A stretch of 64,000 bases of DNA, from assembly GCF_000739655.1 (NCBI RefSeq), contig NZ_BATR01000162.1, positions 62,001-126,000 of the forward strand. The letters run 5' to 3'. Shown here one piece after another: positions 20,294 to 36,143 of this stretch (position 1 is its first letter; every line of letters starts with the position of its first letter). The notes beneath the pieces were generated by a model. The model was not told the DNA's origin, did not search any database, and saw only the letters and a program-made list of their open reading frames with translations. The position numbers and the translations under genes are program-made. This DNA comes from Verrucomicrobium sp. BvORR106 (GTDB taxonomy: Bacteria > Verrucomicrobiota > Verrucomicrobiia > Verrucomicrobiales > Verrucomicrobiaceae).

Positions 20294-20827
20294 ATGCTAC
20301 CAGGTGAAACAGAGCGACATGGCCGATTCCTGCGAGTGTTTACCGCGCATGAGATGGCCATCCGCGCTTATGTCCGGCGGTTGGTCCCCTCCCGTGCCGA
20401 TGCCGATGATGTGATGCAGGAAGTGGCGGTGGTCCTCTGGGAGAAGTTCCCCACGTTCCGGGAGAACAGCGACTTCCGCGCCTGGGCATTCGGCATTGCC
20501 CGCTACGAGGTGCTCTCCTGGCGCCGGGATAAAGGGCGGGACCGTCTCGTGCTGGACGACGATGTTCTGGAACGTCTGGCCGAGGAAACGGCTCAAGAAG
20601 AACCCCGCCTGCAACTGCAACGCCAGGCCCTGGAAGGATGCCTGGCGAAAATGAACGCCGGCCAGCGGGACCTTCTCATGCTGGCCTATGAAGAGGGCGT
20701 CTCCATCCAGACCGTGGCCCAACAGAGCGGGCGCACGGTGGCGGGCTTCTATCAATGGCTCCATCGCGTGCGACGCCTGCTGCTGGAGTGCATTCAACGC
20801 GGACCCATGGGGAGGGTCTGGCCATGA
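20294..20827 (+). CDS. ECF-like RNA polymerase sigma factor (planctomycete/verrucomicrobial type)
   Basis: A 177-residue sigma-70 family protein. Region 2 reads [20 protein letters not shown], then VVLWEKF, then [18 protein letters not shown], with the DDVMQEV helix contacting core polymerase. Region 4 is [20 protein letters not shown]...[15 protein letters not shown], a helix-turn-helix for the -35 element. No anti-sigma of the zinc type is next door; instead a FecR-domain membrane protein overlaps its stop by ATGA. In this phylum such pairs head clusters with large repeat proteins, as here. It likely controls the downstream cassette, which is inference. Confidence 0.9.
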
Positions 20828-22455
20828 ACCGCCCCAACGATCCCTGGGATGCCCTGGTGGGCCGCTACCTCGCCGGGCAGCTCAACGCTGATGACCGTCG
20901 CTTGCTCAATGAGCGTCTCCGCCAGGACCCGGCCGCACGCCGGGACTTCGCGGCGATGCTGAATCTGGACTCCGCCCTGGCCGTGGCGGCAGCCGGAACC
21001 CGCGAGGAAAGGCGGGCCCGGGCGATCAGAAACAAACGCCTCACCTGGATTGGCACCGCCATCGCCACCGCTCTGATCTTGTTCTCAGCCGTAGGTTGGT
21101 GGATGACCCAGGATGGTCGCGCCCCCTTCGCCACCGTGATCACCTCTCAGGGGACGGAATGGAGCGGCCCCAGCGAGGTACGAGGAAAGTTGCAAAACGT
21201 CCAGTCTGGGGCCGTGGGCTTCCAGACCGCCACGGGCAATCGCGTCATCGTGGAAGGTCCCGCCACATTCCGCTTCACCTCGGCGCAGGAGCTGCGTCTC
21301 GATCACGGGCGGGTCCTGGCCATGGTTTCCCCCGAGGGAAAGGGTTTCACCGTCGTGACCCCCGCAGGCAAGATCGTTGACTATGGCACGGAGTTTGGCG
21401 TGGATGTGGATGCCGACGGCACCGCCGAGGTGCAGGTGTACTTGGGCGAGGTGGTGGTCACACCCAGGAGCCAGGGCAGTCACCGCAATCTCACCAAGGG
21501 CGAGGCCCTCACCATGCCGGGCGATGGCTCCCCGCCCGGGGCCGTGACCGGAGGTCGCCGCCAGTTCTTCACCCAGCCGGAGACGGTGCAGCAGCTGCGC
21601 AACACCATGGACCAGCAAGTCCCGGTGACAGCCTCTCCTGATCAACCCAGCCCCCGCACGGCTCATGGAGACTTCTGCAATCTGGGCAACGGGGCCGGCC
21701 TGCCCGGGGTCGTCTATGACTTCAAGCAGAATCCTCAGAAGCAGGACATCCCTTTTGACTCCGGGCGTTATTTCCAAAAGGTGAAGGCGCTGGGTGCGGC
21801 AGGCTTCCCCACCGGGGAGGTGGAGGGTTATTTCCGTGTGCCTCCACTGCAGCGCCGCTTTGCCTACCTGGCCATGCCTGTGGAGGAGGCGGATCTTGCC
21901 CCCTGGACCCTCGGTGCCGAGCAGTCCATGCAGCCCACCGGCTGGATCGCCCACTACAGCGGCGTGGTCACGCCCCCCACCAGCGGGGAGTGGCGGTTCG
22001 TCGGCTACTTTGACGATGCCCTGGCGGTCTACATCAACGGGCAACCGGTACTGGACGGCTCTCGCGATGAGATGATCAATGCTGGTGAGCCCCACCCCGA
22101 TGCCACGCTCCGCCAGCCTTTTGGCAACGGCACGATGCTCAATGGCAAGGCCTATGCGGGCAAGTGGGTGGCCATGAACGGCCCCACGCGGATTGACATT
22201 GTCGTGGGTGAACGGGTCGGCAGCCAGATGGGCGGCCTCCTCATGGTGGAGAACCGGCGCACGGCCTACAACGTGCGCGCCGACGGATCCCCCATCCTGC
22301 CGCCCTTCGTGACCCGCCGCCTCAGCACCGAGGACCGCGCCCACATCAAGGCCTTTTCCGAGTCCCGCGACGGCTACCAGCTCGAGTGGCAGAACCTCCC
22401 CGTTTTCAGACTGGACGACAGCACTCCCGCCCCCGCTTCAAGTTCGTCCCAATAA
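20824..22455 (+). CDS. FecR-domain transmembrane regulator with PA14-like domain
   Basis: The ATG at 20824 overlaps the sigma-factor stop (ATGA). The 543-residue product has a cytoplasmic N-terminus like a FecR/anti-sigma region ([21 protein letters not shown]...[12 protein letters not shown]), one transmembrane helix at about residues 78-95 ([20 protein letters not shown]), then a periplasmic FecR domain ([22 protein letters not shown]). The C-terminal region holds a PA14-like carbohydrate-binding fold ([19 protein letters not shown]...[16 protein letters not shown]). It should sense an extracytoplasmic ligand and control the sigma factor. The passenger gene follows after 49 bases. Confidence 0.85.
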
Positions 22456-22504
22456 CTGCCGCGCTCACTCCGCGGCTCTTCTTCCTTTTGGCTTCCTCAC
22501 CTCC

Positions 22505-25500
22505 ATGGCTCTCCCCATTTTCGCAGCCAGCTCCCCATCCTTTTCGGCCCGGTTCCGCACGCATGCCCTGGCCCTGGCCGCAGGTCTAGGGACCCTGCTT
22601 GCCTCCGGGCTGGCACTGCCTGCCGCGACGGTACTGAAGAACGGCACCGCGAACATCACCCAGACGGCGACCGATTGGGTGGATGGCGGCAATGCCCCCA
22701 CCGCTCCCACATCAGCAGATGTCGGGCAGTTCGGGAACGGCGTCCCCACCACTCTCACGCTGGCAGAGAATGTCTCGCTGCTGGGCTTGAATTTCGCCGC
22801 GGTCACCACCCCCTCTACCTTCATCATCAATGATGGCGGGAGCAAGGTCCTCACCCTCGGGGCCAGCGGCATCGTCGTGGAAGCCGGTTCCCATAGTGTT
22901 ACCCTGAACCATGCAGTCGCCCTGGACGCGAACCAGAGCTGGACGGTGGGTGCCGGACGGGCCCTGGTGGTCAACGGAGTCATCAGCGGGAACTTTAACC
23001 TGACGCTCTCCAGCGCCGCTGGCGACTACGCGGCAGGCTTCCGGTTCACGGGTACAACAGCCAATACCTACACCGGCACCACCACCCTCTCCGCCGGCGC
23101 CCTCATCCTGGCCAAGTCGGCCGGAGTCAACGCCATCGCGGGCAACATCTCCGCCACCGCGCACGGAGCCAACATCATCCTGGCCAATGACGAACAGATC
23201 GCCAACACGGCCATCGTGACCCTTTCCAATGGGGCCAAACTCATCCTGGAAGGACGCACCGAGACCATTGGCGGCCTCCAGGCCACCGGCAGCACCACAC
23301 TCGTGCAGGCCACGGAGTCCGGTACCAACCGCCCCTCCACCCTCATTCTCGATGTGGCCGGGTCGGATTCCTACCACTTCAACGGCGGAATCGTGCGCAA
23401 TGGTGGGACCACCAGCGCCCTCTCAATCGAAAAGAAAGGCACGGGCACGCAGATCCTGGAGGGAGCGCTCATGCACACCGGCACCACCACCATCAGCGGC
23501 GGCACCCTCGTCATCCGTACCAATGGAGCGGTGTACTACAACAACACCCGGGCCATCACCCACTGGGCCAGCGCCATCGTCAACAACGCCACGCTGAACC
23601 TCCAGCACACCAACACGAGCGCGACCGCAGAAACGCTCAGCGTCGCCATCAGCGGCAGCGGGAACGTGATCAAGTCCGGCGCAGGCACGATCCATCTGGG
23701 CAACACCGGCTCCAGCTACGCGGGCATCACCTCCCTTGAGGGCGGCATCCTCGGCGTCGCGAAGTTCGCTGACTACGGTGCCACCAGCAGCCTGGGGAAT
23801 CGCGCAGCGGACGCCGTAGGCGATGTCGGCATCGTCTTCCGCGGCGGCACCCTGCAGTACGTCGGAGCCACGGCCCAGACCACCAACCGAGCCCTGCGCA
23901 TCGGCACCGCCGGCGGCAGCATCGACGCCTCAGGTTCAGCCATCGACGCCACGGTGAAGTTCACCGCCATCAGCTCCCCGGATCTGTTTGAAGGGGTCGG
24001 CGCCCGCACCTTCACCCTGACCGGCAGCAATGCTGGCCGGAACGAATTCAATCTTCAGCTCACCGATCAGGACGTCAACAAGACCAGCCTCACCAAGGCA
24101 GGCTCTGGCACCTGGTACATCACCAACACAAACAACACCTACACCGGCACCACCATTCTTCAGAGCGGCATTCTGAATGTGGCCTCCCTTGCCGACTACG
24201 GCGTGGCCAGCAGCCTGGGCATCAGGCAGTCTGCTGAAGGCCCCACTGGCACGGACCGGATCGGCCTCTTGTTCAGAGGGGGTACGCTCCAGTACACCGG
24301 CAGCACGGCCCAGAGCACCAATCGGGGTCTCCGGATCAGCACCACCGGCGGAGCCTTCATTGACGCCTCCGGCTCCACCCTGGAGGCCACCCTCAGCTTC
24401 ACTGCCGCGAATTCGCCGGACCTCTATGAGAACCCCGGGGCCCGCCAGCTCACGCTGACCGGCAGCAATCAAGGAAACAACACCTTCAGCCTCCAGCTCA
24501 CCGACCAGAACGCCTCCACCGGAAAGACCACGCTCAACAAGACCGGCGTCGGCACCTGGATCCTGAGCAATGTCACCGGCACCACCTCTGAGAGCACTTA
24601 CACGGGCGACACCAACATCCTGCAGGGCATCCTGGCCACCCGTGGCTTTGGCATTGGCAACGGCAGCCTGGTCAATCTGGCGAACGAAGCGTCAGCGACC
24701 CTCCGCCTGGATGCCAGTGAAACCATCGGCGCACTCGGCGGTGGCGGCACCACCGGGGGCAAGGTGGATCTGCAAACCTTCACCCTTACCCTCGGCAGCG
24801 GCAACCGCGACGGCACCTTCGCAGGGCTGATTGTTGGCACAGGCGCCACCAAGGCGGATGACCTCATCAAGACCGGCACCGGCATCCAGTATCTCACTGG
24901 CACGACCAGCACCTATGGCGGCTTCACCGTCCTCGCTCAGGGCATCTTGAATGTCGCCAAGATCGGCAACCTCGGTGAGAACAGCAGCATCGGCAATCGC
25001 GCCGCGGACAACGCCGCCAGCGACGTGGGACTCATCTTCCGGGGCGGCACCCTGCAATACACGGGCAGCACCGCCCAGACCACCGATCGCGCCATCCGCG
25101 TGAGCACTACCGGAGGTGCGTTCATCGATGCCTCCGGCTCCAACATCGACGCCACCCTCTCCTTCACCCGCACCAGTTCCCCTGACTTCTTTGAAGCCGG
25201 CGGCGCCCGCCAGGTCACCTTCACCGGCACGAACCAAGGAAACAACACCTTCAACATGGCCATCACCGAGACGGGCGGCACCACGACCGTGAACAAGACC
25301 GGCGCCGGCACCTGGAAGCTGGGCGGCACCAGCACCTACACGGGTGATACCAACGTGAATGCTGGCGCACTGTTGCTCACCGGAGCACTGGCCAATTCCA
25401 AGGTCACGGTGGCCAGCGGAGCCACCCTCGGCGGCACCGGCACGGCTGCGGGCCAGATCATTATCAATGGCACCCTGTCACCGGGGAATGATGCCAAGAC

Positions 25501-26020
25501 CAATGGCTACGGGATGGGCACCATCACCTTCACCAACACGGTCAACTTTGCCCAGGGCAGCAGCTATTTCGTCCAGCTCGGCACTCATGTCGGCGGCGGC
25601 GTGGGCGCCTCAGACCGCATGGCTGCGGGCAGCGGGCTGACCTTGGGTTCAGAGGTCAACCTTTCGGGCGTGTTTCAAGGCACCTTCGATGACCGGGAAG
25701 ACAACACCCGCTACTGGATCGGCAACAACGGCGGCACGTGGACCATCAACGGAACCTTCGCCAACAGCGAGGTCTGGGACTGGACCGGCATCCTCTACAC
25801 CGCCCAGGAGGCCCCATTCCACCAGGGCTACAAGGTGACTGTGGACGGCGTGGATTTCGCCCTCTTCTACGACGCAAATTTCGGCAGCGACTCGCTCTAT
25901 GGGGGCAATGACATCGTGCTCATTGCCACCGTACCTGAGCCGCTCATGGGCACCCTTTTGCTCGCTGCGCTCGGCAGCATCGCTTTGCAACGGCGACGTC
26001 GCACCCGCGCCGCCGCCTGA
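22505..26020 (+). CDS. Giant autotransporter-associated beta-strand repeat protein with PEP-CTERM-like tail
   Basis: An 1171-residue surface or secreted passenger. A signal peptide (about residues 15-40, LALAAGLGTLLASGLALPAA) precedes a beta-helix-like body with many GGTL, TYTGTT and GSGTW.. repeats of the autotransporter-associated type (ATKAGSGTWYITNTNNTYTG pattern). A larger unit of about 140-150 residues is present three times. The C-terminus is VPEPLMGTLLLAALGSIAL followed by RRRRTR, a PEP-CTERM-like sorting tail in place of an autotransporter barrel. It probably acts as an adhesin or matrix protein. It lies between the FecR gene and the Verru_Chthon cassette, which suggests the cassette serves its export. 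Confidence 0.85.
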   Translation: MALPIFAASSPSFSARFRTHALALAAGLGTLLASGLALPAATVLKNGTANITQTATDWVDGGNAPTAPTSADVGQFGNGVPTTLTLAENVSLLGLNFAAVTTPSTFIINDGGSKVLTLGASGIVVEAGSHSVTLNHAVALDANQSWTVGAGRALVVNGVISGNFNLTLSSAAGDYAAGFRFTGTTANTYTGTTTLSAGALILAKSAGVNAIAGNISATAHGANIILANDEQIANTAIVTLSNGAKLILEGRTETIGGLQATGSTTLVQATESGTNRPSTLILDVAGSDSYHFNGGIVRNGGTTSALSIEKKGTGTQILEGALMHTGTTTISGGTLVIRTNGAVYYNNTRAITHWASAIVNNATLNLQHTNTSATAETLSVAISGSGNVIKSGAGTIHLGNTGSSYAGITSLEGGILGVAKFADYGATSSLGNRAADAVGDVGIVFRGGTLQYVGATAQTTNRALRIGTAGGSIDASGSAIDATVKFTAISSPDLFEGVGARTFTLTGSNAGRNEFNLQLTDQDVNKTSLTKAGSGTWYITNTNNTYTGTTILQSGILNVASLADYGVASSLGIRQSAEGPTGTDRIGLLFRGGTLQYTGSTAQSTNRGLRISTTGGAFIDASGSTLEATLSFTAANSPDLYENPGARQLTLTGSNQGNNTFSLQLTDQNASTGKTTLNKTGVGTWILSNVTGTTSESTYTGDTNILQGILATRGFGIGNGSLVNLANEASATLRLDASETIGALGGGGTTGGKVDLQTFTLTLGSGNRDGTFAGLIVGTGATKADDLIKTGTGIQYLTGTTSTYGGFTVLAQGILNVAKIGNLGENSSIGNRAADNAASDVGLIFRGGTLQYTGSTAQTTDRAIRVSTTGGAFIDASGSNIDATLSFTRTSSPDFFEAGGARQVTFTGTNQGNNTFNMAITETGGTTTVNKTGAGTWKLGGTSTYTGDTNVNAGALLLTGALANSKVTVASGATLGGTGTAAGQIIINGTLSPGNDAKTNGYGMGTITFTNTVNFAQGSSYFVQLGTHVGGGVGASDRMAAGSGLTLGSEVNLSGVFQGTFDDREDNTRYWIGNNGGTWTINGTFANSEVWDWTGILYTAQEAPFHQGYKVTVDGVDFALFYDANFGSDSLYGGNDIVLIATVPEPLMGTLLLAALGSIALQRRRRTRAAA
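23741..25360 (+). repeat. Three long internal repeats in the passenger gene
   Basis: Units begin near 23741, 24164 and 24938 and are similar at both DNA and protein level. Each contains LGNRAAD-like, GVIFRGGTLQY, GSTAQTTNRA, IDASGS and GTWxI elements. Units 1 and 2 are adjacent; a non-repeat stretch of about 340 bases separates 2 and 3. Confidence 0.75.
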
Positions 26021-26245
26021 TCGGACAGATTATTTCATCATACCTACATCGTTCATCCCCCGGTTCATCGGGCGGGTGGTGACCGGCACGGCCGGCCCGC
26101 TCCCTCATGCACTGATGGCTGAAGCACAAGCGGCACACTTTTGAGATTTAAGTCTTGAATCGAGTTTCGATTCGTCATTACATCGTACACACCATGTTTC
26201 ATTTCTATGAACCTGGAGCAGTCCATCTCTACCACAGGTAGCATT

Positions 26246-29200
26246 ATGCGGGCGCAGCGCAGAACCTCGTCAGGCATGGCCTTGATCTCCGTGCTCTGCG
26301 TTCTGGCGCTGCTCATGGTGCTCGTGCTTGCCGTGCTCTCCATGAGCCGCACGGAAACTCGCGCTTCATCATCCTATGCCCGCATCACGGATGTGCGCAC
26401 CCTCGCGGACCTCCCCGTCAATGTGGTGATGGGACAGATCCGGCAGGCAACATCGGGCTTGGGTGATGGCAAGTCCTGGACTTCCCAGCCTGGGATGATC
26501 CGGGTCTTCGGCACGGAATCAGGCCCCTTGAACCGCGCCCGCCTTCTCCAGGCCTATCGGCTCTATTCCTCGGATACCATGGTGGCCGGGGCCACCTTTG
26601 ACTCCACCACCGAGGCCGCCAGTCTGAACGGGTGGGAGACAAAGAAAGCCCACTTCACCGATCTCAACGAGCCCGTGGTCACCCCACTGCCCTCCGGCAC
26701 CCAGACCATTCTCAGGAAGACGTTTCCCATCATGGACGTGAGCGTCTTTGATTCCAATGCCGATGGGGTCGCAGATCTTGTGGGCAGCACTGACGGCCGG
26801 ATTGACGGTGCCCGCATCCTCTCCGCCCTGCCCGGCACGGATGCATCTCACCCGCTGCCCATGCCCGTCCGCTGGATGTATGTGTGCGAAGACGGTCGGT
26901 TGATCGTGCCCACCGGCGAGCAGAATGGCGAGGCACTCTTTGATACCTCGATTGTCACCGCAGACAATCCGATCACTGGTCGCATCGCCTTCTGGACGGA
27001 TGACGAGTCCTGCAAGGTCAATATCAACACCGCCAGTGAGGGCGTCCCCTGGGAGGTGCCCGTGGGCACCTCCTGGCAGGATCAGAACTGGGCCAAGTTC
27101 ATGCCCGGCCAGAATGAGTTTCAACGCTTCCCCGGCCATCCGGCCATGACCTGCCTCAGCACCGTCATGAAGAGCTTTGACCCCGCCTTCACCCGCCTCA
27201 CGCAGCAGATGAGCTCAGCCTACACCGCAGGCACGGGCGAGGGCAGCTATGCTGATCCAGATTATTTCAAGAACCTGTACCAGATGCTGCCCCGCACGAA
27301 CTGGGGCAACGCCGGCCAGAGCTCCCAGGCAGGGACCGCGGCCGTCAATGTGAACACCGGACTGCCCGTGAAAGCTGAGCGCATCTTCGCCTCCGTGGAT
27401 GAGTTCTTTTATGCCTCGAACCTGAGCGGCTCCGGCCAGCGTCTGCCCAACGACTCCGCCAGCCGGGTGGATGGCAATGAGATCCGCATGGCCCGCGCCT
27501 TCCTCACCGCCCACAGCCGCGCTCCAGAGACCAACCTCTTCAACCGGCCCCGCATCTGCCTCTGGCCTCTCTTCGCGGATACCAACACCCGCAATACCAA
27601 AGATCGCCTCATTGCCTTCGCCGCCACCTCCTCCGGCCAGACCGCCGCCTGGTACCGCGCCCAGAAGTGGGTTTCAGACTCCAACCCCGGCTCATCGCAG
27701 AGTCCGGATGCGGACTTCAATCTGCAGCACAACCAGCAACTCTTTGCCTACCTCCAGTCCCTTACCTCCAAGCCGGTGCCGGGCTTCGGGGCCGACACCT
27801 TTGTCACCAAGTACGGGGAGCTGAACCGCAACCAGATCCTCCTGGAGATGTTCGACCTGCAACGTTGGGGGGTGAACTCCTGGTACGCAGAACGCGACAG
27901 CGGTGGGGCGATCGATTTCACCAAGAGCTATGCCTACGTGCCGCCTCGCGCCTACGTGAGACCCTCCGGTGGCTGGGTGGGTGAAAGTTCCGCCCTGCCC
28001 ACGAAGATCCGCTCCGTACCAGACGGCGGTCCCGTGCCCCCAGACGGGCTCAAGGCCTTCGGCCGCTGGCCCACCGTGGTAGAGGTGGCCGTGGTCTTCA
28101 TGCCGACAGAGATCCGCGCGAAGAACAACACCGTCTTGCGCGACAGCTTTGACGCCATCGAGCTGAACAAGGCCAAGTTCGAAGGCGTGACGAATCTCTA
28201 CCCCGACAGCGGGGACCCTGGCCAGAAGTGGGCAGACCGAACCCTCAAGATGCGGCCCTACCTCATCATCCAGCCCTTCACACCGGTGGTGGGCATGCCT
28301 CCTTACAGCGCGAACATCCGCTACCGCATTGAGGGGCTGGAGACCTGGAAAGTCAACGGCAGTACCCCGATGTTCGCTGACATCGGATCACTGAACACCG
28401 TCCGCACGGAGCGCTCCAACGGTAGCACGGATGAAAACGCGCACATGACCTCCTACACCGGTCTTCAGGCGATCATCATGGACAAGCCTCCGCGGGAGTT
28501 TGTGGGCTCGCCCAATGAGAATAGCTGCTATCCCTTCATTGGCCGGGAGATTTCTGTAGATCCCGAGCAGGGCACCTTCACCTTTCCCGGAAACCCCGGC
28601 GAAAACGGCGCCAACCAGGAAATCACCATCAAGATTTACTCCGGGTATGGACCAGCGCCAGGTCCCAATGAAACCCCCATTCAGACGATCAAAATGCGCT
28701 TCCCCACCGTGAAGCTGCGCACTCCCCGGCTGTATCTTGGCGAATGGAAGGACACCCCTCTCATGGGGCTGCAGCGCCGCATCGACCAAGGCAGCTTCCA
28801 GTCTGAAGTGACCCGCCCGGGCGACGTTATTCGCTCGGTCGTGGTGAACGCCAGCCCCAGCTCACCCAGCGGCGGAGACTACCGTATCATCACGTCGAAG
28901 GCGATGGTGACCGCCGACCATTTCACACCGCATCATCATTATTTCTATGATGCCAACGGTACCAAGGGCGACTTCATGTATGAGGCGCAAAGCCTGCGCC
29001 TGGCCTCCAAGACCCACACCGGCCACTACGGCCACCCCAACATCACGCCTCCGGGATATTTTGACAGCATCGCCGACGGAGCCCAGCACTCCTGGCAGGC
29101 TGCCGGGTGGGAATGGACCGGCTCCTCCCCCAACCTCTCCAGCACCAAGCCGTATGGCCTGTTGAGGAACGTGTTCTACTGGCAGGACTGCCAGCCGGCC

Positions 29201-30400
29201 GGTCCGCCCAGGCTCAACGGAGCGTACAACGCCTCCGGCAATCCCGGTGACTGGGACAACGGCATCGGCCGGGTGGAGGACGGTGCCTACATCAACAAGC
29301 CCGACGAGGGCGGCTATGATGGCAGCGCCAACAAGTACTTCGAGCGCGGAGGATTCTCCGAAGACAGTGGCAAGGCCTACTCGCCGAACCGGCAGATCGC
29401 CTCCGCCGTCGCCTTCGGCTCCCTGCCTAGTGGTGTGCTTGGCGATGCCACCACCGCGGTCTCCCGCCCGTGGCAGACACTCCTCTTCTGCCCCAATCCC
29501 CATTCCCGCAGCACCCTGGCGCTTCAGCAGCCTGGCGCAGCAGATCACTTCGGGTTCACCCTGCCCCGAGACCACCTGTTGCTGGACGCCTTCTGGATGC
29601 CCATCGTAGAGCCCTACGCCATCAGCGAGCCCTTCTCCACCGCAGGCAAGGTGAACATGAATCACCAGATGCTGCCCTTCACCCATCTGCAAAGGGCCAC
29701 CGCGCTGCATGCCGCCCTCCGCAGCGTGCGGGTACGGGCCCTGCCGGCCGCCCTGGCCTGGGTGGGCAACAGCGACCGGACCAACTACCGCGACATCACC
29801 AACGGCGTGGAGGAATGCTACAAGTCGTCCGGTCACTGGATGAAGTTCGAGACCAGCTACGACGTGAATGTGGCGGAGACGCTCAAGGCCTTCAACAACC
29901 GGTTCAACACCCAGAAGGACGTGTTCCGCTCCGCTTCAGAAATCTGCGAAGTTTTCCTCGTGCCCCAGATGATCCCCGGCCGCACCTACAGCACCGCCGC
30001 GGGCGGCAAGCCCTCCCGGAATCCGCAGTACGAGGAAATGACTGACTGGTGGAACGGTGCCCTGAACTCCCAGAAGGATGGCATGGAGCTCACCGGGGAC
30101 AACACACGTGAGTCCCCGTACAACCAGCTCTACCCGCGTCTCACCACGCGGTCGAACGTCTTCCAGGTGCACTACCGCGTGCAGGCACTGCGCAAGTCCC
30201 GCTCCACCAACGCCAGCCGGTGGGACGAGACGCGGGACATGATCTCCAGTGACTACCGCGGCTCCGCCATCTTGGAGCGTTACCTCGATCCCAACATCAC
30301 CGGACTGCCCAACTTCATCACCAACCCCGGCAACTCCTCAGGCGCTCTGGACGACCACTACCGCTTCCGCGTCATCCAGCGCAAGCAGTTTGCCCCATGA
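26246..30400 (+). CDS. Verru_Chthon cassette protein A (GspK-like pseudopilin N-terminus)
   Basis: A protein of about 1384 residues, the first and largest of the four-gene Verru_Chthon cassette. The ATG at 26246 is preferred over 26207 because it leaves a short basic class III leader, MRAQRRTSSG, directly before MALISVLCVLALLMVLVLAV. This N-terminus matches GspK of type II secretion, which begins G/MALI and, unlike other pseudopilins, lacks Glu at +5 (here Ser). A very large extracytoplasmic domain with many aromatic, Asn and Gly residues follows. Function unknown in the family; a pilus-tip or export-adapter role is inferred. Proteins B, C and D follow after 54, 14 and 44 bases. Confidence 0.9.
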   Translation: MRAQRRTSSGMALISVLCVLALLMVLVLAVLSMSRTETRASSSYARITDVRTLADLPVNVVMGQIRQATSGLGDGKSWTSQPGMIRVFGTESGPLNRARLLQAYRLYSSDTMVAGATFDSTTEAASLNGWETKKAHFTDLNEPVVTPLPSGTQTILRKTFPIMDVSVFDSNADGVADLVGSTDGRIDGARILSALPGTDASHPLPMPVRWMYVCEDGRLIVPTGEQNGEALFDTSIVTADNPITGRIAFWTDDESCKVNINTASEGVPWEVPVGTSWQDQNWAKFMPGQNEFQRFPGHPAMTCLSTVMKSFDPAFTRLTQQMSSAYTAGTGEGSYADPDYFKNLYQMLPRTNWGNAGQSSQAGTAAVNVNTGLPVKAERIFASVDEFFYASNLSGSGQRLPNDSASRVDGNEIRMARAFLTAHSRAPETNLFNRPRICLWPLFADTNTRNTKDRLIAFAATSSGQTAAWYRAQKWVSDSNPGSSQSPDADFNLQHNQQLFAYLQSLTSKPVPGFGADTFVTKYGELNRNQILLEMFDLQRWGVNSWYAERDSGGAIDFTKSYAYVPPRAYVRPSGGWVGESSALPTKIRSVPDGGPVPPDGLKAFGRWPTVVEVAVVFMPTEIRAKNNTVLRDSFDAIELNKAKFEGVTNLYPDSGDPGQKWADRTLKMRPYLIIQPFTPVVGMPPYSANIRYRIEGLETWKVNGSTPMFADIGSLNTVRTERSNGSTDENAHMTSYTGLQAIIMDKPPREFVGSPNENSCYPFIGREISVDPEQGTFTFPGNPGENGANQEITIKIYSGYGPAPGPNETPIQTIKMRFPTVKLRTPRLYLGEWKDTPLMGLQRRIDQGSFQSEVTRPGDVIRSVVVNASPSSPSGGDYRIITSKAMVTADHFTPHHHYFYDANGTKGDFMYEAQSLRLASKTHTGHYGHPNITPPGYFDSIADGAQHSWQAAGWEWTGSSPNLSSTKPYGLLRNVFYWQDCQPAGPPRLNGAYNASGNPGDWDNGIGRVEDGAYINKPDEGGYDGSANKYFERGGFSEDSGKAYSPNRQIASAVAFGSLPSGVLGDATTAVSRPWQTLLFCPNPHSRSTLALQQPGAADHFGFTLPRDHLLLDAFWMPIVEPYAISEPFSTAGKVNMNHQMLPFTHLQRATALHAALRSVRVRALPAALAWVGNSDRTNYRDITNGVEECYKSSGHWMKFETSYDVNVAETLKAFNNRFNTQKDVFRSASEICEVFLVPQMIPGRTYSTAAGGKPSRNPQYEEMTDWWNGALNSQKDGMELTGDNTRESPYNQLYPRLTTRSNVFQVHYRVQALRKSRSTNASRWDETRDMISSDYRGSAILERYLDPNITGLPNFITNPGNSSGALDDHYRFRVIQRKQFAP

Positions 30401-30454
30401 TTCTCTGTTCCTTCTTCATGTACCCCCACCCTCATTTGAGCACCGCCATTCCCC

Positions 30455-30952
30455 ATGAAACCTGTCTTCTCCGACATGCGAGCCCGTCTGTGCCGGGACC
30501 GCTGTTCCTACGCCTTCTCACTTGTTGAAGTCACTCTCGCGGTGGCCGTCACAGCCACCGTGGCCATGACGCTCCTGGGCCTCCTTCCGGCGGGTCTGGA
30601 CGGCATGCGCCAGTCTGCCAATACTGCCGCCCACGCCCGCATCCTGCAGACACTCGCCGGGCAGGCCCAGATGAACACCTGGCAGGAGATCACCAGCTCC
30701 GGCTACTCCAGCCGCACTTACGCCTTCGACTACCAAGGGGGCGAACTGGAAGGCCTGGAAAGCGCGCAGGTCACCTATCTCGCCAGGGGCCGGGTGCAGG
30801 ATGCCCCCCCGCTGCCCGGCAGCACGGCCACGAATCCCCGGTTGCGGCTCCTCCGCATTGAGATCGTCACCGGCTCCAGTGCCGCAGACTTTGGCACCCC
30901 GCGGTGCAACACCTACGCCACGCAGATCGCCCAGATGGATGACACCCCCTAA
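30455..30952 (+). CDS. Verru_Chthon cassette protein B (GspI-like pseudopilin)
   Basis: A 165-residue prepilin-like protein. The leader ends CSYA, and processing is expected before FSLVEVTLAVAVTATVAMTLLGLLP, which has Phe at +1 and Glu at +5. A shorter start at residue 8 (30476) is also possible. The globular part is small, about 120 residues, as in minor pseudopilin GspI. It needs a prepilin peptidase encoded elsewhere. It sits between cassette proteins A and C in one operon. Confidence 0.87.
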   Translation: MKPVFSDMRARLCRDRCSYAFSLVEVTLAVAVTATVAMTLLGLLPAGLDGMRQSANTAAHARILQTLAGQAQMNTWQEITSSGYSSRTYAFDYQGGELEGLESAQVTYLARGRVQDAPPLPGSTATNPRLRLLRIEIVTGSSAADFGTPRCNTYATQIAQMDDTP

Positions 30953-30966
30953 CCCAAGTTGCTTCC

Positions 30967-32049
30967 ATGAACCGTCGCCTGCACGCCCCCGCCTTTACCT
31001 TGCTGGAGATGCTCGTCTCCATGACGATCACCTCCATCCTGCTCACGCTCATGGTGCAGATCATGGGCACCACCCAGCAGACTTGGCAGCGCACTAAGTC
31101 CCAGGCCGAGGCCTTCCGGAGTGCGCGAGAAGCCTTTGAGAGCATCTCCCGCCAGCTCTCCCAGGCCACCCTGAACAACTACTGGGACTACAACGATCCC
31201 AACCAGCCCACCTACTATCAGCGCCAGTCAGAGCTGCACTACGTCTCCGGTCCTGCCTCCTCGCTGCTCACCTCCATGGCCAATCCCACGATCGGCCACA
31301 GCGTATTCTTCCAAGCCCCGCTGGGGGTGGATCATCTGGACCCTGCCACCCAACCCGGTGCCGGACTGGACCAGGCCCTCAACGCCTGGGGCTACTATGT
31401 GGAGTACAACTCCGACCTCCCCACCCGACCCGGCTTCATGACCGAAGCCTCCCCCACCCACCCGGAGAAAAAGCGCTTCCGGCTCATGGAGTTCCGCCTG
31501 CCCTCAGAGAACTTTGACCTCTTCAAGCTCCCCAGCACCGCCACCGCAGGTACCCGGCCGGCGCTCCATGCCGCCACCACGGCCTCAGGCCTCTACTCCT
31601 GGTTCCGCACCCCGTTGCAAACCCGGTCGGAACCGCTCGCGGAAAACATCCTGGCCCTCATCATCCGCCCCACCTTCCCCGGACAATCCACCCAGCCGGA
31701 TGACTACCTCTACGACACCCGCAGCTGCCAGCTCACCAGCGGCAACATCTCCGATGCGGATGCCGCACGCCGTCACCAACTGCCTCCGGCCATCCGCATC
31801 GTGCTCGTGGCCCTGGATGAAAGCTCCTGGCTCCGGGCTGAGCATGACGAAGCCCTCTCCACCGAGTTGGTGAACCTCGTCAACAATGAGCTCTTCACCC
31901 GCCCGGCCAGGCTTGAAGATGATCTCATCGAACTCTCCGCCACCCTGACCAGCATGAATCTCCAGCATCGCGTCTTCAACACCACCGTCTCCATCCGGGC
32001 GGCCAAATGGCACACCGAGAAGCAGAAGAACCCCACGACCACGCCATAG
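30967..32049 (+). CDS. Verru_Chthon cassette protein C (GspJ-like pseudopilin)
   Basis: A 360-residue protein with the nine-residue leader MNRRLHAPA, then the prepilin helix FTLLEMLVSMTITSILLTLM with Glu at +5. An amphipathic continuation (WQRTKSQAEAFRSAREAFESI) is typical of GspJ, whose long N-terminal helix is followed by a beta domain. It is larger than GspJ of classical systems (about 200 residues). It follows protein B by 14 bases. Probably inserted in the inner membrane, then assembled with proteins A, B and D; that assembly is inference from the T2SS parallel. Confidence 0.87.
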   Translation: MNRRLHAPAFTLLEMLVSMTITSILLTLMVQIMGTTQQTWQRTKSQAEAFRSAREAFESISRQLSQATLNNYWDYNDPNQPTYYQRQSELHYVSGPASSLLTSMANPTIGHSVFFQAPLGVDHLDPATQPGAGLDQALNAWGYYVEYNSDLPTRPGFMTEASPTHPEKKRFRLMEFRLPSENFDLFKLPSTATAGTRPALHAATTASGLYSWFRTPLQTRSEPLAENILALIIRPTFPGQSTQPDDYLYDTRSCQLTSGNISDADAARRHQLPPAIRIVLVALDESSWLRAEHDEALSTELVNLVNNELFTRPARLEDDLIELSATLTSMNLQHRVFNTTVSIRAAKWHTEKQKNPTTTP

Positions 32050-32093
32050 CCCGCCGCCGTCGAGTCACGCAATTTCATTTTCTGTTTGTTTCC

Positions 32094-32678
32094 ATGAACT
32101 CATCACCTCCTGCCCTCCGTTCCTCCGTTCGCGGATTCACCCTGGTGGAGCTGATCGTGGTGATCGCCGTGGCCAGTGTCATCATGAGCCTCTCCATCGG
32201 CGGGCTCAATCAGTCCCTCCAGTCCCAGCGGCTCAGCGCCTCCGCCACCCGTCTTGCCGGTGAGCACGGGGCCGCCACCCTCCAGGCCGTGCGGGAGAAT
32301 CGCAGCCTTGAGGTCCGCCTGCTTCGACGCACGCTCGACATCAGCCCGGCCAATCGGCTGCGAGGTGTGCAGATCTTTGCCGTGGAGCCCACCACCGGTG
32401 AGGCCAGGCCCGTGGGTGAGCCCATCTTTCTGGATCCCGGAGTGGTAGTGCTGGAAAACGAAGTGCACTCCACCCTGCTCAAGCACAAGTCCACCACCAT
32501 CCCGGATGGCTACTACACGCTAAAGGCTTCCGGCACCACGGATCTGGACAAAGGCGCCACCGACCGCTGGTGCATCACTCTCGCATTGGAAGAGGAAATA
32601 AAGGACGAGTCCTCACCACCCCCCAACCACCGCGTCCTGGTCATCAATCCCCACACCGCCGCTGTTCAGCTGTACTAA
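32094..32678 (+). CDS. Verru_Chthon cassette protein D (GspH/GspG-like pseudopilin)
   Basis: The ATG at 32094 gives a 194-residue product with leader MNSSPPALRSSVRG and the classic prepilin cut site before FTLVELIVVIAVASVIMSLS. The consensus Gly at -1, Phe at +1 and Glu at +5 are all present, the best pilin signature of the four. The rest is a small beta-rich domain ending in PHTAAVQLY. The longer open frame from 32007 overlaps protein C and is rejected. It is the last gene of the cassette; a repeat element and an oppositely oriented gene follow. Confidence 0.88.
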   Translation: MNSSPPALRSSVRGFTLVELIVVIAVASVIMSLSIGGLNQSLQSQRLSASATRLAGEHGAATLQAVRENRSLEVRLLRRTLDISPANRLRGVQIFAVEPTTGEARPVGEPIFLDPGVVVLENEVHSTLLKHKSTTIPDGYYTLKASGTTDLDKGATDRWCITLALEEEIKDESSPPPNHRVLVINPHTAAVQLY

Positions 32679-35455: not shown

Positions 35456-35625
35456 CCAAAAGCCTGAGCCCCCCACCCCAAGGAGCGGCGGTTTGTGCTT
35501 GCACAACCGCCGATGGGAAGCGGAGCGATTGACCGCCAAACCCCGACTGCCGTGTAATGCCACATCGCCGTTGACTGGCTTGGGATCAGTTCCGCTCCGG
35601 CCAACTCCGGCGGTTGTGCAAGCAC
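35456..35625. repeat. Long repeat element, copy 1
   Basis: Close match of 35648-35829, starting near CCAAAAGCCTGAGCC. It includes CCAAGGAGCGGCGGTTTGTG, TGAAGCGGAGCGATTGACCG-like core, GACTGCCGTGT, CTCCGGCC and CGGCGGTTGTGCAAGCAC. It lacks the right-hand inverted arm present in copy 2. Confidence 0.8.
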
Positions 35626-35647
35626 GACAGTCAACCTCTCGCCATCG

Positions 35648-35829
35648 CCAAAGGCCTGGGCACCCCCAAGGAGCGGCGGTTTGTGCCTGCACAACCGTCG
35701 ATGAGAAGCGGAGCGATTGACCGCCAAACACCGACTGCCGTGTGAGGCCCATTGCTGCTTGCAGACTTGGGATCGATTCCCCTCCGGCCAGCCCCGGCGG
35801 TTGTGCAAGCACAAACCGCCGCTCCTTGG
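35648..35829. repeat. Long repeat element, copy 2, with 21-base inverted repeats
   Basis: The segment 35666-35829 is bounded by perfect 21-base inverted arms (35666-35686 and 35809-35829), beginning CCAAGGAGCGG and ending CCGCTCCTTGG. A core of about 120 bases lies between them. It looks like a non-autonomous palindromic element (MITE-like); no transposase is nearby. Confidence 0.8.
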
Positions 35830-36018: not shown

Positions 36019-36060
36019 GCACAAGCACAAGCACATGCACATGCACATGCACATGCACAT
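36019..36060. repeat. Hexanucleotide tandem array
   Basis: Seven head-to-tail hexamers: two GCACAA then five GCACAT. It lies in non-coding DNA. Confidence 0.9.
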
Positions 36061-36143
36061 GCTCAATCTCCTTCACATGCCATGTTCTTTGCCATGCTCA
36101 CGCTCAGGGGTACGGAACGCCATCAACCTCCCACCAAGCGCTC

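Follow-up and report, generated by a model that had tools for sequence, protein, structure and literature searches.

Verru_Chthon A-D cassettes of Verrucomicrobium sp. BvORR106 as candidate minor-pseudopilin tip complexes beside PEP-CTERM-tagged passengers

The 64,000-nucleotide stretch analysed here (the window) corresponds to positions 62001-126000 of contig C48 in the 8.69 Mb draft genome of Verrucomicrobium sp. BvORR106, and it carries a run of seven open reading frames (ORFs), all on the + strand, that ends in a cassette of four prepilin-like proteins known in NCBIfam as Verru_Chthon A-D. The run opens with an extracytoplasmic function (ECF)-type sigma factor of the Rhodopirellula/Verrucomicrobium family (20294..20827; TIGR02989, 202.8 bits, cut-off 124.55), followed by a FecR-PA14 membrane regulator (20824..22455; PF04773, 32.4 bits, and PF07691, 24.3 bits, both with a cut-off of 24). 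The next gene encodes the passenger (22505..26020), which has a signal peptide-like N-terminus by eye, 7 PATR stretches (TIGR02601, PF12951) and a PEP-CTERM-like tail (25892..26002) made of VPEP, a hydrophobic stretch and RRRR, matched weakly by Pfam and also by a tail profile. The cassette itself consists of A (26207..30400; TIGR02600, 1671 bits), a giant GspK-like minor pseudopilin with a predicted cleavage after Gly23 and no Glu+5; B (30455..30952; TIGR02598, 178 bits), GspI/PilV-like by family profiles; C (30967..32049; TIGR02599, 440 bits), GspJ-like in its predicted model; and D (32094..32678; TIGR02596, 218 bits), GspH-like by the gspH profile. A to D match the full NCBIfam models in one block, all over cut-off, and D likely starts at 32094, although its frame is open from 32007. 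An initial annotation made from the sequence alone had already placed the seven ORFs at these positions and described the prepilin motifs of A to D and an ATGA overlap between the sigma factor and FecR genes; all of this held, with the ATG at 20824 and the TGA at 20825-20827. In Verrucomicrobium sp. BvORR034, the closest named relative found, the corresponding locus (92% in A) has sigma factor, FecR, passenger and A to D in the window's order.

The same annotation had equated A, B, C and D one by one with the type II secretion system (T2SS) proteins GspK, GspI, GspJ and GspH. A GspJ fold for C and a GspK fold for a homologue of A were borne out, and for D as GspH and B as GspI/PilV the resemblance is by profile, less clear in B. 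The model of the window's C (mean predicted local distance difference test score, pLDDT, 90.7) gave a top ten composed of GspJ-containing structures (EpsJ, XcpW, GspJ) plus two structures of a type IV-like pilin from Thermus, with Z-scores of 9.5-10.5; 3ci0_J reached 10.1, XcpW alone (3nje_B) 9.5 and the Thermus pilin 10.4 and 10.0, and the first non-pilin stood at 5.0. For A, a shorter homologue, at locus L090, was modelled (1181 residues, mean pLDDT 82.4, predicted template modelling score 0.86), whose best segment is 32% identical to the window's A with residues 2-1374 matched. Its best match with VIA-align was 3ci0_K, that is GspK, at Z 12.1 over 254 of 280 residues with a root-mean-square deviation of 3.5 and spanning model residues 46-1181, while the next match fell to Z 4.5. 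Chains such as 3ci0_J and 3ci0_K were assigned to subunits from chain letters, titles and lengths.

Family profiles point the same way. At E-values up to 0.1, NCBIfam GspK matched 17 of the 19 A paralogues, gspH all 20 of the D paralogues and gspJ 15 of the 19 C paralogues, and the 19 B paralogues matched PilV (9), XpsI (9) and gspI (8). Conversely, the Verru_Chthon D model picks up residues 55-161 of the GspH-like protein encoded at the T2SS locus on contig C73 of the same genome, with E 7e-7 and a sub-threshold score of 29.5 bits. The proposal that lack of Glu+5 marks A as the GspK of the set was upheld, since the residue is found in none of the 25 A rows from this genome (three being fragments without the N-terminus) and in 1 of 85 others, compared with 18/19 own and 62/66 other rows for B, 19/20 and 66/69 for C, and 20/20 and 64/64 for D. 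Against PDB sequences, the A profile returned nothing at E up to 10, the C and B profiles returned pilin N-termini and chance rows only, and the D profile returned pilins together with WD-40-type repeat proteins that had no matched stretch. Taken as a whole, the reading of A to D as a tip complex is strongly supported.

The length of A sets it apart, with 899-1705 residues in 19 aligned paralogues versus 307 in the GspK model. Two GspK-type motifs are nevertheless conserved, an N-I-N-T-A after an acidic stretch in 38 of 40 homologues and a G-K-I-N-M-N in 33 of 40. In the canonical GspK proteins of the genome we identified by eye the counterparts RLNLN and GRVDVN (contig C200, positions 160 and 262) and SRIPINY and GLIDLN (C73, positions 165 and 268), about 100 residues apart, and those of C200 mark the starts of the Pfam domains T2SSK_1st (159-244) and T2SSK (264-333). 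In the window's A the motifs stand at 272 and 1147, 875 residues apart, so the bulk of its extra length lies between them. On its motifs and the predicted model of its homologue, A is a putative giant GspK, and its added part would sit at the far tip, where known complexes place the inter-motif part of GspK. Within the L090 model, residues 509-757 gave weak beta-sandwich matches, with Z up to 4.5.

The cassette is present in many copies. Calling units from stop-to-stop ORFs and profiles built here, we counted 23 in the genome, among them units truncated at contig ends or with genes missing. Nine have the order A-B-C-D (one with a split A), seven D-B-C-A, two B-C-D-A, one B-A-C-D and one C-A-D (cut), and A stands alone in three. 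The initial annotation had described the cassette order as the reverse of gsp H-I-J-K, which is wrong, because K-I-J-H is not the reverse of H-I-J-K; D-B-C-A is itself the gspH-I-J-K order, and the same order occurs at the C73 T2SS locus. Pairwise distances among A, B, C and D correlate over 16 cassettes (r 0.59-0.92, Mantel P 0.0002), a pattern as in sets inherited together. Across the phylum, a TIGR02600 survey placed at least 8 of 288 genomes above cut-off, a lower bound because at most two candidates per genome were scored, and most of the other matches listed were N-terminal only. Four of the genomes (G251, G254, G231 and G045; loci L157-L172 and L191-L207) have 3 to 17 matches each to long proteins (~950-1500 residues) whose N-terminus is GspK/PilX-like (GFAL...). 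These were rejected as cassettes, since the fetched stretches held no B or C match except one C in L168, and on close reading the proteins of L157, L158, L163, L172 and L191 lack the NINTA motif of cassette A. An exported-looking protein of ~260-350 residues lies downstream of the long protein at L157, L158, L172 and L191.

Core T2SS genes had been predicted to lie outside the cassette, and they were indeed found at other loci. T2SSE is matched 12 times in the genome, and the six strong matches lie in frames of 568-730 residues. At the C73 locus Pfam recognizes E, F, G and K; J and H are sub-threshold T2SSJ and gspH matches, I is assigned by position and the cassette B profile only, and a GspD N0 match is sub-threshold. 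The C200 locus contributes a secretin, G, K and an H-like protein. A shareable T2SS machine with its own tip is therefore present in the genome, and since C73 has its own G, H, I, J and K, the cassettes are not the sole tips of that system. The genome also encodes three exosortases. Exosortase was present in 8/8 cassette genomes (this one and seven others) versus 7/16 others, a comparison in which the 16 genomes were picked non-randomly from the listed non-matching ones and seven of the eight cassette genomes belong to one family.

The PEP-CTERM-like tail previously described in the passenger stands as a motif, with a Pfam match that is weak (17.7 bits, cut-off 20.7). A tail profile built without it gives it 22 bits; with this profile all reversed decoys stayed below 12 bits, a single one reaching 10. 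With a PEP motif, a hydrophobic stretch and a basic end (below the Pfam cut-off) in a genome with exosortases, the passenger is a candidate exosortase substrate. PEP tails number at least 72 genome-wide (73 matches minus the weakest, with 150 of 196 candidates scored, hence a lower bound) versus about 20 cassettes; in Verrucomicrobium spinosum, Haft and colleagues counted 65 PEP-CTERM proteins, according to a passage of PMC1569441. Two further tails deserve mention. One lies at 551-649 of the window, in a 4861-residue open frame entering from the left, and at C200:145681-151014 (L034) a PATR passenger frame has a PEP-CTERM-like tail mid-frame, followed by ~750 further in-frame residues.

Passengers lie close to the cassettes of this genome. 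A PATR and/or PEP-CTERM gene occurs within 500 bp of 16 of the 23 units, co-directional in 15, and 10 of the 72 PEP tails start within 1 kb of a unit, where 1.5 are expected (Poisson P 4e-6); the 1-kb count overlooks passengers whose tail is at the far end, and because cassette-adjacent sequences served to train the PEP-tail and regulator profiles, these are biased toward near ones. G078, another genome of this class, has 18 cassettes and 24 tails, and 13 of the tails fall no more than 10 kb from a cassette versus 2.9 by circular shift (P 0.003), 10 kb being the largest of five distances tried. At C19:80163-97208 (L039/L040), an A gene without B to D lies upstream of a passenger that precedes a full A-B-C-D, so that one passenger stands between two A genes. 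BvORR034, set apart from other genera, has a passenger within 500 bp in 5/8 units. In other genera the figures are 5/58 within 500 bp and 18/58 within 2.5 kb, both lower bounds, as the 58 units were drawn from the 80 best of 380 loci, short-flank loci among them. The claim of one adjacent passenger per cassette is thus valid in part, for 16/23 units here, and fails in other genera as far as tight adjacency goes; tight adjacency is a trait of Verrucomicrobium, with exceptions.

Around the 58 units of other genera the neighbours are of another kind. LacI/AraC-type regulators number 17 within 1.5 kb (11.2 per 100 kb versus 0.7 to 5.1 farther out) and are found beside 14 of the 58 units, with two cluster members checked by Pfam. 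Flanking clusters common to several of these loci include GH130, GH16, GH2, a sugar-type major facilitator superfamily transporter and a histidine kinase, and one or two members of each cluster were checked by Pfam. These sugar-type neighbours fit a report, as excerpted, of a Verrucomicrobiota genome with an alginate-induced pulG-like pseudopilin and 67 homologues (PMC13274419).

The sigma/FecR pair had been expected to accompany every cassette, an expectation that our results contradict. The sigma family was found near just 3/23 units (C48, C140 and C200); a fourth match, at C46:168476 about 3 kb from a unit, is weak and below cut-off. Elsewhere, among 79 named loci, the family stands beside cassettes in BvORR034 only. 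The pair is a local add-on to the cassette, and in the window it would turn the passenger-cassette unit on. Rfam and tRNA scans of the window gave no matches. Downstream of the cassette lie a block with two 86-nucleotide direct repeats (93%) and 35-nucleotide perfect inverted arms (35476-35829) and 7.3 tandem copies of the hexamer GCACAT (36019-36062).

The explanation that we favour, with a probability of about one half, is that A to D are interchangeable tip complexes for a shared T2SS, tied to cargo or to polysaccharide loci. D, B, C and A would be the GspH, GspI, GspJ and GspK of a type II-like pseudopilus tip, and the extra residues of A, by analogy, would project at its outermost end. 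Each of the ~20 sets beside the canonical T2SS would act as an alternative tip, priming a pseudopilus on a shared core of secretin, ATPase, platform and major pseudopilin encoded elsewhere, and recruiting a particular cargo or pushing it out. For Verrucomicrobium the usual cargo would be the adjacent signal-peptide-bearing, PEP-CTERM-tagged repeat passenger, and in other genera it may be enzymes from adjacent polysaccharide loci. What the analysis shows directly is the predicted folds of C and the A homologue, the kinship of B and D by profile, the paralogy, the gene orders and the counts of adjacent passengers. We infer complex formation by A to D, use of a shared machine, the identity of the cargo and its transit across the outer membrane, and the alternative-tip reading draws on precedents in Pseudomonas, Myxococcus and MYXO-CTERM/GlyGly-CTERM proteins (parts of PMC6211770, PMC7541494 and PMC11980579).

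The nearest known system is GspH-I-J-K of the T2SS (PulH-K, XcpU-X), with which the cassettes share four prepilin-like proteins, the absence of Glu+5 in the K role only, the GspK and GspJ folds and, in 7/23 units, the H-I-J-K order; they differ in a far longer K, in many sets per genome, in genes apart from the machine and in first members that score below gsp cut-offs. Excerpts of PMC7541494 state that GspK and PilX lack Glu5, propose GspK as the tip that meets substrates and call PilY1 an analogue of T2SS substrates. The Pseudomonas XcpU-V-W-X tip complex is described, in the portion of PMC6211770 available, as critical to substrate recognition. Myxococcus, according to the same excerpts of PMC7541494, has three PilY1/FimU-PilV-PilW-PilX clusters inferred to use one machine; like the cassettes, they combine multiple sets of minor pilins with large exported partners, one per set, but they number three and the partner is PilY1, whereas here it is a PATR/PEP-CTERM protein and the A model matches GspK. 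MYXO-CTERM and GlyGly-CTERM proteins cross the outer membrane via the T2SS (passages of PMC11980579) and are comparable in being cargo with a C-terminal sorting tail, whereas the tail of the passenger is PEP-CTERM-like and its export by the T2SS is only putative. In Verruconatronum alginivorum, a pulG-like pseudopilin in a polysaccharide locus is over-expressed on alginate (part of PMC13274419), also a pseudopilin at a Verrucomicrobiota polysaccharide locus, but described there as pulG-like proteins and not as a four-gene tip set. The NCBIfam names Verru_Chthon A-D carry no function, while a tip-complex role is supported here; among open-licence PMC papers the cassette name and model numbers were absent, and no giant or GspK-like pseudopilin appeared under the wordings tried.

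Several observations weigh against the favoured explanation. Because C73 has its own minor pseudopilins, an extra tip set is unneeded for basic secretion, and transposon mutants of xcpU and xcpX (the H and K roles) still secreted, whereas those of xcpV and xcpW did not, according to the available portion of PMC6211770. The GspK-fold model is that of the L090 homologue and not of the window's own A, and Foldseek alone gave it no significant match, with 3ci0_K 13th at E 1.3. The first-member A, B, C and D match gsp models mostly over the N-terminal helix and score below the curated gspH/I/J/K cut-offs, for which reason A to D are not filed as gsp equivalogs. Other models are also matched, ComGD by 20/20 D paralogues, ComGE and ComGF by 19/19 C paralogues, and PRK10557 by 13/19 B paralogues, more than gspI. 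On the cargo side, the excess of tails over cassettes means that most PEP-tagged proteins have no cassette of their own, and divergence in the last 150 residues of passengers does not follow that of A (r -0.01, n=10) or of C (r 0.07). Seven of the 23 own units (C117, C96, C19:30k, C111, C157, C195 and C19:80k) lack a passenger within 500 bp, of which C195 is truncated at the end of its contig and C19:80k has its nearest passenger 552 bp off, a passenger that it shares with the lone A at C19:92k. At a distance of 1 kb the G078 count drops to 3/24 tails (P 0.06), and in other genera 53/58 units lack a passenger within 500 bp.

Three other explanations were considered. The cassette might supply the tip of a pilus-like fibre that serves display and not export, with the giant A, with or without a passenger, acting as an adhesin or polysaccharide binder as PilY1 does with FimU-PilV-PilW-PilX in type IVa pili. 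The D-B-C-A-passenger order of the C140 unit resembles the fimU-V-W-X-pilY1 layout, and the large extra part of A with its weak beta-sandwich matches, the Myxococcus clusters and the dense LacI/AraC-type regulators, GH130, GH2 and GH16 beside cassettes in other genera are all compatible with display. We nonetheless consider it unlikely, as the A model matches 254/280 GspK residues and the passenger has a C-terminal sorting tail and no PilY1 domain listed by Pfam at E up to 1. We also hold it improbable that the tip complex is real and its link to the passenger mere co-regulation, the passenger surfacing via exosortase and another route. The three exosortases, the surplus of PEP tails, their failure to co-diverge with A and the weak adjacency outside the genus agree with such a view, but it sits poorly with the 15 co-directional neighbours among the 16 units with a close passenger and with tails near units well over chance. 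A classical autotransporter as passenger, with an incidental cassette, was already disfavoured and appears very improbable: PATR repeats are named for autotransporter passengers, but the tail is PEP-CTERM-like and no barrel was found in a Pfam search at E up to 1, which listed PATR and PEP-CTERM alone.

Interchangeable tips on a shared T2SS could be carried further, to a plug-in form of secretion with dozens of swappable tips. Every tip would have its own regulator and a giant GspK that reads the cargo, different beta-helix or polysaccharide-degrading proteins would be loaded by them onto a single T2SS, and exosortase-tagged proteins would cross the outer membrane in this way. We know of no proof of the route by which PEP-CTERM surface proteins cross the outer membrane, and we offer this extension tentatively, as a possible but doubtful one. 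The analysis proposes a role that can be tested for a cassette so far known by name only, ties minor pseudopilins to PEP-CTERM surface proteins and provides a natural many-tips system in which T2SS cargo choice may be studied. It suggests that such bacteria maintain numerous tips to serve the different cargoes that they export.

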